A DNA stretch of 64,000 nucleotides from Rhodohalobacter sp. SW132 (GTDB lineage: Bacteria > Bacteroidota > Rhodothermia > Balneolales > Balneolaceae): NCBI RefSeq assembly GCF_003390325.1, contig NZ_QUOK01000005.1, positions 310,001-374,000 of the forward strand, in the 5' to 3' direction. The position numbers were made by a program, and so were the translations under genes. Positions 59,632 to 63,137 of this stretch are shown here, in pieces (position 1 is the stretch's first letter; the number at the start of each line of letters is the position of its first letter). The notes beneath the pieces were generated by a model. That model did no database searches. It was not told the DNA's origin and was given only the letters and a program-made list of their open reading frames with translations.

Positions 59632-60663
59632 TCACTCCTCAATTATTTTCATCCTGTATTCATCAAATCCATAATTTGAACCTTCCTGTACAATCACTTG
59701 GTAAGTTTGCACACCTAAAGCTTTCAAATCCCGAATTTGACCCAGAAAAGGTAGTTTTTTTCGGGTAATTAAGCTCCCATCATTTAAATCCCTTAAATCT
59801 GCATAATAACTCCACTGGGTCCTGTCTTCTAACGGAATCGGTTCATACCAGTGTACAAAAAAGTAATTTTCGTTTAGTTCCCGGAGGTCTACCAGGCTGG
59901 GATAAAATTTCACTTCATATGAGTTTGGAGTCACTTCAATATGTTCCACCCAGGGTTCAGGAATCACATCATCTGTGGACTCCCAAAGCAATGTATGTTC
60001 ATCTGAATAATGTCTTATTTCGTACGGTGCATTTAAGAGTAGCAAGTATCCCTGATCCGTTTTTGCGAATTTCCCGGAATTAAGCTGATTTTGTATTGAC
60101 CGGCTTACAAACTGAATACCTGTAATATCCCAATCAATAAACTCACCAACAGAAAATTCATACTCTTTGGAGCTCTTGTCATGAAAGTGCAATAAAGCGT
60201 TATTATCCTGGTGATTGCCTGTAATCGTTACGTAATCATGCCAAAAATATAACCCGTGTAAAGCATTAACGGTATAGTCAATTGGATAGGTCTCAACAAA
60301 TGATCCCTCTTTCGGGTTAAATGTTGAGATTCTGCGATTTTGATGATCCAGCACCATAAGCAGGTTTTCATTTTCTGACATGCTATAGGACATTGCCCGA
60401 CCAATATCGCCGGGACCTCTTCCCTGGGTACCAAAACTGTTTATTAAATCTCCAGAATTATTATAAACCGAAAAATGATCCCGGTTCAAAACAATAACTT
60501 TATCAGTATCAAAATATTGAGCAGATGCCCCGGGAGCAAAAGCGTGCTCATACCCTGACAAAAAAGAGCCCAGCTTTTCAAAAATAATAGACTGTGATAA
60601 GATTGTACCTGGAAAAATAGAACTAATGGAGAATATCATAGCGGCAAATTTTATTCTCTTCAT
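59632..60663 (-). CDS. 6-bladed beta-propeller exported protein
   Basis: 343 residues from the ATG at 60661-60663, giving a type I signal (FSISSIFPGTILSQS). Hallmark SFGTQGRGPGDIGRAM near residue 75, a GPGD variant. Blades include MVLDHQNRRISTFNPKEGSF and YLLLLNAPYEIRHYSDEHTL. The 5' region contains leader repeat R1 (60698-60768), which recurs before the LuxR relic. It belongs to the cluster with the 60921 and 63138 genes. Confidence 0.8.
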   Translation of the reverse strand: MKRIKFAAMIFSISSIFPGTILSQSIIFEKLGSFLSGYEHAFAPGASAQYFDTDKVIVLNRDHFSVYNNSGDLINSFGTQGRGPGDIGRAMSYSMSENENLLMVLDHQNRRISTFNPKEGSFVETYPIDYTVNALHGLYFWHDYVTITGNHQDNNALLHFHDKSSKEYEFSVGEFIDWDITGIQFVSRSIQNQLNSGKFAKTDQGYLLLLNAPYEIRHYSDEHTLLWESTDDVIPEPWVEHIEVTPNSYEVKFYPSLVDLRELNENYFFVHWYEPIPLEDRTQWSYYADLRDLNDGSLITRKKLPFLGQIRDLKALGVQTYQVIVQEGSNYGFDEYRMKIIEE

Positions 60664-60697
60664 GATGATGGCAGGTGTAAGTTTGGAGTAACGATAT

Positions 60698-60768
60698 ACA
60701 ATTTTCTCACTTCGAATCGACATCTTGATGTTTTCCTAAATAGTAAAAAAGTTTAAAAAGGGGCAGTG
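60698..60768 (-). promoter_or_regulatory. Leader repeat R1
   Basis: A segment of about 70 bp with core CTTCGAATC.ACATCTTGATG followed by TTTTCCTAAATAGTAAA on the plus strand. It matches R2 (62846-62918) with few differences. The core begins 47 nt before the start of the propeller gene at 60663, compared with 46 nt for R2 and the LuxR start, so it is probably a shared promoter or leader element. Confidence 0.7.
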
Positions 60769-60920: not shown

Positions 60921-62060
60921 TTACCTATGAACTAAATCGCTCAGATTTACACGAATGATATCCTCTTCAAACATTCCTGCTAAATATAGCCAGGGTTCAT
61001 CATACGCCATAGAAAATATTGTAAATAAGGTATTATCATCTTTATAGAATCGATAACTCCCTTCATGAGCCCAATTATTCTTCTCTTTTTTTAGCAACGT
61101 TAAAAATCTCAATTCTGCATGCCTGTTCGCATAGTAGACGGCTATCCTGTTATTTAGATATAGTATATCTATAATAAAATAATTCATGCTGATCCGTTTA
61201 TCCGTTTCAACTGCTATTGGTGGCGGATTTAAAAGAACCGATTCATTGTTTTCAATTCCTGTGCTTTGCAAATTTGAACGTTCAACATTGGATTCTATTA
61301 AATCCAAACCTGGAAATTTAATCTGAAGAATTCGATCAATTTGATACTCTCGATCATATATAAAAATAAATGGCAAGGCTGGATTGATGACGGCCAATTC
61401 CTCACCATTACTATCCATATATACTTCATTATACTGAACTGGTTGCTGCCCAATGGGGATAATTCGTCGATGAAAAGCCTGGACAAAATCTGGTTGATCT
61501 GTAAGATTCAGCTTATTCACTACAAACTGTTCATTCGTTGCAGACATGTAGTAAAAATTGTTTGATGAAAAAGCAAAATCATTAAATGGATGTGAATAGA
61601 GATCCTCAAGAATTACATCTTTTATATGATTCCAACCTAAATCATACTGAATAATTTTATATAAGCTGGTATCTACTATAAAATGAGACTGTCCATCCGA
61701 ATAATAGTAACTGATTCTCCGATACTCACCCGGCCCTTCGCCCTCGAATTGATATTTTGCCAGATGTTTACCCGATCGGAGATCGATCTTTTTTATGCCT
61801 TTCTTATCATAATTGACAATGAAAAGTGATTCTCCATGAACTGAAAACCAATGCCCCAACCCAACATCAAATGGTGCATCTAGCGGTGAACGAATGGTTT
61901 GATAATTCTGATTCCCTACATCAATAATTTCCGCTTCATCTATAGAAATCGTTTCTATTAGTTCATCTCCATACAATTCGTAAATTGAACTGTATCTATC
62001 GAAAGAACGATCATTTGAACAACCAACGAATATTATGAAACAGATAACAATAGATCTCAT
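60921..62060 (-). CDS. 6-bladed beta-propeller lipoprotein
   Basis: 379 residues. Lipobox FIIFVGC (Cys14). Hallmark EGEGPGEYRRISYYY near residue 108. Blades include LFIVNYDKKGIKKIDLRSGK and PFIFIYDREYQIDRILQIKF. AT-rich compared with the paralogues at 44.9-48.8 kb, suggesting a separate origin. It lies 54 nt downstream of the cysteine-rich peptide gene on the same strand, so the two probably share a transcript. Confidence 0.82.
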   Translation of the reverse strand: MRSIVICFIIFVGCSNDRSFDRYSSIYELYGDELIETISIDEAEIIDVGNQNYQTIRSPLDAPFDVGLGHWFSVHGESLFIVNYDKKGIKKIDLRSGKHLAKYQFEGEGPGEYRRISYYYSDGQSHFIVDTSLYKIIQYDLGWNHIKDVILEDLYSHPFNDFAFSSNNFYYMSATNEQFVVNKLNLTDQPDFVQAFHRRIIPIGQQPVQYNEVYMDSNGEELAVINPALPFIFIYDREYQIDRILQIKFPGLDLIESNVERSNLQSTGIENNESVLLNPPPIAVETDKRISMNYFIIDILYLNNRIAVYYANRHAELRFLTLLKKEKNNWAHEGSYRFYKDDNTLFTIFSMAYDEPWLYLAGMFEEDIIRVNLSDLVHR

Positions 62061-62114: not shown

Positions 62115-62393
62115 TTATACTTCACACATAACAGGATCCAAACCTCCACAAATCGTACCTGTATATATTCCAGATCCACCATCTCTACCCGTATATCCGT
62201 CAGTACATGCTATTCCAAAAGCCCAAATACCACTACCACCAAAATGTTGTACAAATGAAACCGCACATAGTGCTCCAGTTTCACTATCTATGTAAGTACA
62301 TTCTGTTTCACAATTAGCATTTACATCTGTGAACGATAGCATTAGGAAGGAAAATAAAAGAAAAAGTATTGAGAAGATTTTTGATTTTTTCAT
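62115..62393 (-). CDS. Cysteine-rich exported small protein (NVEALA-like context)
   Basis: 92 residues. Signal peptide IFSILFLLFSFLMLSFTDVNA, then CETECTYIDSETGALCAV with further cysteines at about 62, 82 and 90 (TICGG, PVMCEV) and a Gly-rich middle. Short exported Cys-containing peptides are known to be encoded beside 6-bladed propeller proteins in Bacteroidota (NVEALA family); the setting here is the same although the sequence is not a clear NVEALA member. The six cysteines could form disulphides. It is probably the partner or cargo of the propeller protein downstream. Confidence 0.7.
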   Translation of the reverse strand: MKKSKIFSILFLLFSFLMLSFTDVNANCETECTYIDSETGALCAVSFVQHFGGSGIWAFGIACTDGYTGRDGGSGIYTGTICGGLDPVMCEV

Positions 62394-62527
62394 TTTTTCA
62401 TTTTTTTAAATTAGATAATCAAATTCCCTAATAATTTAATTTCAAAATATTATACTCGAAATAAGCACATCTACGTATTATACTAAGCACATGTGCGTAC
62501 TTTCTATAACGTCTATTCATCAGTAAT

Positions 62528-62815
62528 TCATTTAAAATCACCATTTCTAACCTTCCAAAGCCATTTTATTAACCCATGGCGACCTCGGATGTCTAATTTG
62601 TTACAAATATTGTTCCTGTGCTTCTGAATGGTTCGTGCCGATAAATGCATCTCCTCTGCAATCTCCTTATTTGAATTTCCTCTCTCTACCATTTTCAAAA
62701 CTTTAATCTCCCTCGGGGTTAATATCTCAACGGCTTCCAGGTAAGTTTTCCTGTTAGTTAGTTAGTTAGTTAGTTAGTTGGTTGGTTGGTTGGTTGGTTG
62801 GTTAGAATCTGACAT
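62528..62815 (-). pseudogene. Solo LuxR-type HTH gene interrupted by a (CAAC)6(TAAC)6 microsatellite
   Basis: From the ATG at 62813-62815, MSDSN is followed by 48 bp of tetranucleotide repeat, then in the same phase RKTYLEAVEILTPREIKVLK and a full GerE/LuxR HTH (GNSNKEIAEEMHLSARTIQKH, then a basic C-terminus) ending at 62528. The CAAC units read QPTN and are open, but the six TAAC units introduce TAA codons in every frame, two of them in the HTH frame. Without the C-to-T changes it would be a 95-residue HTH-only regulator. Leader repeat R2 lies 46 nt upstream. Probably off, or reliant on internal initiation. Confidence 0.78.
62753..62800. repeat. Tetranucleotide microsatellite (CAAC)6(TAAC)6 on the minus strand
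   Basis: 48 bp of uninterrupted 4-bp units: GTTA six times then GTTG six times on the plus strand. It lies in the N-terminal coding part of the LuxR relic. Tracts of this length and unit size are typical of slippage-prone contingency loci. Confidence 0.95.
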
Positions 62816-63137
62816 GATGATAGTTACTGGTTTTTAGTTTTGATGAACAATTTGTACACACTTCGAATCAACATCTTGATGTTTTCCTAAATAGTAAATT
62901 CGTTTAAAAAGGGCAAGAGTAGTGACACCCTCCATCAATCAGTGCTAAAATTAATCACGATATCCTTGTAAGAACAATCGAGAAAGACAACTACGTATCA
63001 ACACTAATATAAGATTAAGAGCGATTGCTGCTGCAAACAGTTCGGCTGAACTACATTTACGCAAGAGATTGACCTTGGCAATAAGTTTACGGGAAAACTT
63101 ATCGGTTTCAGGCATGCTCTCTGTTTGACATTTTATT
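62816..63137. other. Leader and intergenic region containing leader repeat R2
   Basis: The leader of the LuxR relic. R2 lies at about 62846-62918 and matches R1. The remainder (62919-63137) has no ORF or hairpin worth calling. Confidence 0.5.
62846..62918 (-). promoter_or_regulatory. Leader repeat R2
   Basis: About 70 bp matching R1. The core of 38 bp differs at only one position and lies 46 nt before the LuxR start codon. Beyond the core (towards the start) AAATTGT-type sequence is also partly conserved. Confidence 0.7.

Follow-up and report, generated by a model that had tools for sequence, protein, structure and literature searches.

The closest described counterpart of the tract analysed here is found in Haemophilus influenzae, in which the hgp genes undergo phase variation through 5'-proximal CCAA repeats; in hgpB, loss of a unit shifts the frame, and a change of GCCAACCAA to G truncates the protein (PMC6646836). 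Regulatory genes can also be switched by mutable elements. A C6/C7 tract in bvgS of Bordetella pertussis switches the targets of this regulatory gene (PMC1891110), Campylobacter flgR/flgS carry mutable poly A/T tracts (PMC8355987), and the Clostridioides difficile regulator CmrRST is switched by an invertible element (PMC11868660). These systems resemble the family described below in that a regulatory gene contains, or is preceded by, a mutable tract or an invertible element, but they are two-component or global regulators with many targets, whereas the present regulator would serve one operon; they also rely on homopolymers or inversion instead of tetranucleotides, and do not form a paralogue family with private sites. 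As a stand-alone LuxR-type DNA-binding domain of 74 residues, GerE of Bacillus subtilis resembles the protein encoded here; unlike the window gene, GerE lacks a repeat tract, and its targets are many spore-coat genes. Finally, operons of Bacteroidota place 6-bladed propellers of the DUF5128/DUF4221/DUF4934 families beside small secreted peptides, and NVEALA-type peptides are associated with such operons. We found no description in the literature searched of a repeat-gated regulator of a propeller-plus-peptide cassette, nor of a family of small regulators each with a mutable repeat, a private site and a peptide-propeller operon, and no paper on phase variation in Balneolaceae, the cases found being otherwise general or from pathogens.

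We analysed a window of 64,000 nucleotides from Rhodohalobacter sp. SW132, which carries on its minus strand a regulator gene consisting of an ATG, a repeat tract and a GerE-type helix-turn-helix (HTH) (62528..62815), with the open reading frame broken by TAA codons within the tract. The gene starts at 62815 and reads ATG TCA GAT TCT AAC CAA CCA ...; the ATG is followed by TCAGATTC, one TAAC unit, six CAAC units, six TAAC units and then 74 codons with the GerE/LuxR-type HTH. Minus-strand reading bore out the 48-bp (CAAC)6(TAAC)6 tract reported in the preliminary description (CAAC at 62800..62777, TAAC at 62776..62753), with the HTH in the frame of the ATG and TAA in all three frames of the TAAC block. 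The predicted product ends after 13 residues, and would, as also claimed there, comprise 95 residues were the TAAC-block stops absent. Because the further TAAC unit lies immediately 5' of the CAAC block (62804..62801), Tandem Repeats Finder counts 13.2 units at the tract as a whole (TAAC1-CAAC6-TAAC6, 62753..62804). The tract resembles that of the hgp genes, CCAA being CAAC in another register and occupying a similar 5' position, whereas the hgp repeat gates a surface receptor directly and the window tract, in an unrelated organism, would gate a regulator with one neighbouring operon. Since this is the only array of at least four CAAC units in the 5.08-Mb source genome, and since the same gene position recurs in relatives, we ruled out a chance origin of the tract, the arrays being confined to the 5' ends of genes in Balneolaceae. 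A blastn search of a plasmid collection gave no match.

The HTH part of the gene (62531..62752, minus strand) is intact, with no stop or frameshift across its 74 codons. It matched Pfam GerE (PF00196) with an E value of 4e-19 (68.3 bits, cut-off 23.5), and the best match among plain GerE-type solved structures was GerE itself (1fse, E 1e-17). Against relatives, its dN was about 0.36 and its dS above 2. A sequence check of the interval between tract and HTH detected no ATG, GTG or TTG. Only about 20 tract codons precede the HTH, and no autoinducer-binding N-terminal domain is present; nor does the 95-aa frame, in which the HTH was the sole match, contain the receiver domain of a two-component response regulator. 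Of the earlier designation as a LuxR-type solo, the LuxR/GerE HTH thus stands but the autoinducer domain is absent, and the gene would therefore be better named a GerE-like stand-alone DNA-binding domain.

At other loci, TAAC was seen only as the first unit. The C-to-T change across the units proposed previously is unlikely as a set of separate events; a single C-to-T change, after which slippage multiplied the variant unit, would be the simplest origin of (TAAC)6, and the block of six identical variant units would itself be a sign that the window tract slipped. As judged from the sequence, the window allele is OFF more deeply than by frame alone, since the TAAC block stops all three frames, and a single-unit change cannot reopen it. 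Loss of at least four TAAC units might do so, and the term "locked off" plausibly fits the present allele.

We then compared the locus with 92 Balneolaceae genomes, 36 other genomes of the order and a 198-genome sample of the phylum, with one genome per species, so that comparisons bearing on slippage are between species. Arrays of at least four CAAC units were present in 11 of the 92 Balneolaceae genomes and, contig-end cases apart, all lay shortly 3' of an ATG; one array (L102) is cut by the contig end. Eleven arrays, counting those of the window and L107 (10 besides the window), precede a short LuxR HTH, and two, at L105 and the first array of L108, precede an AraC-type HTH (HTH_18). Outside the family, (CAAC)5 was absent from the 36 other genomes of the order and present in only one genome of the phylum sample. 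A profile search for short LuxR proteins, after which each locus was read, revealed further repeat types at the same position: (AAAC)8 in L172, (AAAC)5 in L179, 8-bp CAACCAGG units in L173 and A10 in L177. Arrays of at least five AAAC units also precede AraC-like ORFs in three genomes, with HTH_18 below the cut-off there. When the window protein was the sole query, its two nearest relatives were retrieved, with poly-G leaders and no CAAC; runs of 6 to 9 G occur in the leaders of five close relatives (L167, L168 twice, L169 and L171), the number of G differing among the aligned leaders. These runs lie about 70 bp before the HTH, possibly in the promoter spacer.

The repeat number and the resulting phase also varied among relatives. 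The orthologues L173 and L175 are about 95% identical from leader through HTH and differ in the tract by exactly 24 bp, that is, three 8-bp units, which keeps the frame. In pure-CAAC relatives, a single-unit change could switch the gene, and both phases occur within one clade: L108b and L110 can be read from an upstream ATG, but L100, L099 and L109, which are related to them, cannot. The 5' end could be read at 21 tract loci, which were scored as ON when the coding part is in frame with an upstream ATG; four were ON (L108b, L110, L179 and L173) and 17, including the window, were OFF. These ON states are too few for chance (P 1.5e-4 with any ATG, 0.002 with the first ATG), and ON cells may be rare or costly. 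At 16 of the 21 loci, two upstream ATGs occupy two frames and leave one OFF frame, in which most of them sit. The HTHs remain open, and wherever dS could be estimated dN was well below it; they are therefore used at least sometimes.

The neighbours on the same strand are those named in the preliminary description. A 92-aa Cys-containing peptide with a hydrophobic N-terminus, which matches no named family (62115..62393), is followed by a 379-aa propeller-type lipoprotein as the second cassette gene (60921..62060), which passes DUF4221 and falls just below the gathering score for DUF5128 (PF17170; 22.7 against 22.9 bits). Two window neighbours exceed that score (28.4 and 33.8 bits), and one DUF5128 propeller, of 363 aa (59632..60723), has a leader resembling that of the regulator. 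The shared leader, too, was confirmed: the regulator leader (62847..62913), with the palindrome AACATCTTGATGTT at 62870-62883, and the copy at the 363-aa propeller gene (60698..60762), with the palindrome at 60719-60732 and one mismatch, are 88% identical on the same strand, with no third copy in the genome. Within the window, the palindrome occurs at these two leaders only, which may serve a second, upstream regulator.

The earlier idea that the regulator controls its neighbours was retained, the clue lying in a site 3' of the gene more than in the shared leader. Between the regulator stop and the peptide start lies a paired operator-like site (62462..62499, minus strand) composed of TACGCACATGTGCTTA (62484-62499) and TACGTAGATGTGCTTA (62462-62477), 22 bp apart, which is kept downstream of the regulators of relatives. 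The window 16-mer, with at most one mismatch, has two matches in the 5.08-Mb genome, both at this paired site. An inverted repeat lies just 3' of the stop codon of the regulators, scoring 7.51 on average compared with 5.03 +/- 0.18 for shuffled sequences, and its sequence depends on the clade: the window clade has a paired TACGYACATGTRCTTA, the CYLT clade TACCCACTTNGTGGGTA, and other clades CCCCTAAAATAATAGGGG and CTACTCAAAATATTGAGTA. Across the 92 genomes, the site core has seven occurrences, all immediately downstream of window-clade regulators. The simplest reading would be one regulator, one candidate site and one operon.

Taken at the level of the family, the comparative evidence supports the earlier suggestion of a contingency locus that controls its neighbours, because repeats recur at the same position in relatives, the repeat number differs between near-identical orthologues, both phases are found in one clade, and a conserved cassette accompanies a private operator-like site. 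We consider it probable that slippage in the repeat gates a local regulator dedicated to a single peptide-propeller operon, and that the window gene would belong to a phase-variable family of stand-alone GerE-type regulators in Balneolaceae. Replication slippage between the start codon and the HTH would add or remove 4-bp units and so bring the HTH into or out of frame. In the ON state, the gene would yield a small protein that binds the paired site immediately 3' of it and switches one adjacent operon, encoding a Cys-rich exported peptide and a propeller protein. Binding, slippage in the source strain, activation rather than repression, and the export and role of the peptide are the parts that we infer. 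The copy in the source genome would have been turned OFF by the C-to-T change and the expansion to (TAAC)6; since this block stops all three frames, restoration would require the block to shrink to no more than two TAAC units in the right phase, or to be lost.

Some observations speak against this reading. A plain random switch does not predict the excess of OFF states at the 21 loci, and the only near-identical orthologue pair differs by a length that preserves the frame. The window copy might instead be a dead pseudogene, in which a switchable ancestor was permanently lost through the stop-bearing expansion, leaving the operon silent or otherwise controlled. We regard this as somewhat doubtful but well worth entertaining: the stops in every frame, the lack of a usable start between tract and HTH, and one half of the paired site that differs from the sequence of relatives all suit a dead gene, whereas the uninterrupted 74 codons, the low dN relative to dS and the persistence of the paired site argue for a maintained one, although each of these could predate a recent loss. 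An error of assembly or sequencing in the repeat is very improbable. Repeats are error-prone and the contigs of L102 and L107 end at such tracts, but an ordinary short read is longer than the 52-bp tract, the source genome holds no second such array, and errors do not usually take the form of six identical T-for-C units.

It is also quite improbable that the tract is no switch and that the HTH is made at most loci by programmed frameshifting or re-initiation. At 14 of the 21 loci, the HTH is in frame -1 relative to the first ATG (P 0.002), which either process would explain, but offsets 0 and +1 occur as well, the poly-G relatives have no such tract, and to our knowledge the CAAC repeats hold no classical slippery heptamer. 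For re-initiation, L112 and L109 have an ATG 3' of the tract, from which a shortened protein could start whatever the frame; the window gene, with stops in all frames, has no such internal start. The palindromes downstream of the regulators could, furthermore, be hairpins rather than operators, that is, transcription terminators or RNA hairpins, with the regulator acting elsewhere. Their position just 3' of the stop codon and the T run after the hairpin of the CYLT clade are consistent with this, yet we hold it unlikely, since the window-clade sites keep their exact sequence despite saturated synonymous sites, lack a T run, and occur solely next to regulators of their own clade. The TACCCAC...GTGGGTA form of the site, which we take to resemble NarL-type sites, likewise speaks against hairpins.

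If slippage does gate dedicated regulators, Balneolaceae might hold a repertoire of independent mutation-gated switches, each composed of a mini-regulator with its private operator and a single peptide-propeller operon. Most of the switches would be kept OFF, and now one, now another secreted peptide would be expressed in rare cells. We put this forward tentatively, with a little less than even confidence; it would amount to combinatorial bet-hedging through dedicated regulators and not through the effector genes themselves. The kind of mechanism, simple-sequence-repeat phase variation, is known, and its coupling to dedicated one-operon regulators would be a new variant. The most familiar examples of such variation are surface genes of small-genome pathogens; here it would operate in environmental Balneolaceae. 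The several repeat types arising in one gene family offer a natural series on how switches arise and die, and the regulators provide a handle on the function of the widespread propeller-plus-small-peptide operons.

The cassette itself is conserved 3' of the regulators on the same strand, as a Cys-rich peptide of 64-134 aa followed by a propeller of about 350-430 aa. DUF5128 was matched in 35 of 43 large ORFs downstream of regulators, and a propeller lay within 1.5 kb of 30 of 41 short-LuxR loci against 0 of 36 other LuxR loci, the former figure being flattered because the test loci themselves supplied the propeller profile. The peptides have a Sec-like N-terminus or an LSRSEMKxIMAG-like leader and matched no named family in a profile search, which distinguishes these cassettes from the Bacteroidota operons that have the same propeller families beside small peptides. 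In some clusters, a VKOR-plus-thioredoxin protein and a peptidase-C39 ABC transporter are encoded as well, suggesting that disulfide-bonded peptides are exported. The clusters of L107, L099, L109 and L110, with VKOR and thioredoxin, the peptidase-C39 ABC transporter in L109, and LSRSEMKxIMAG-like peptides, look like peptide-export (bacteriocin-like) systems.

Two CAAC arrays precede non-regulator genes and are out of the ATG frame: that of L106 (5022-5037) lies before a thioredoxin/VKOR-like tail, as read by eye, and that of L111 (1201-1232) before a lipoprotein-like ORF. In G101 and G105, near-identical leaders ending in ATGAAGAATGGAGATAAGCAA (L174, L175 and L173) are joined to quite different HTHs, two of them of LuxR type and differing from each other, the third in an AraC-like ORF that lies further down L175. 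The pattern looks as though a promoter-plus-start module had been swapped with its breakpoint at the tract. Similarly, L191 (at the end of G101:C3) and L204 (at the start of G101:C157) share a common leader with (AAAC)n and then diverge, the assembly breaking or branching at the tract.
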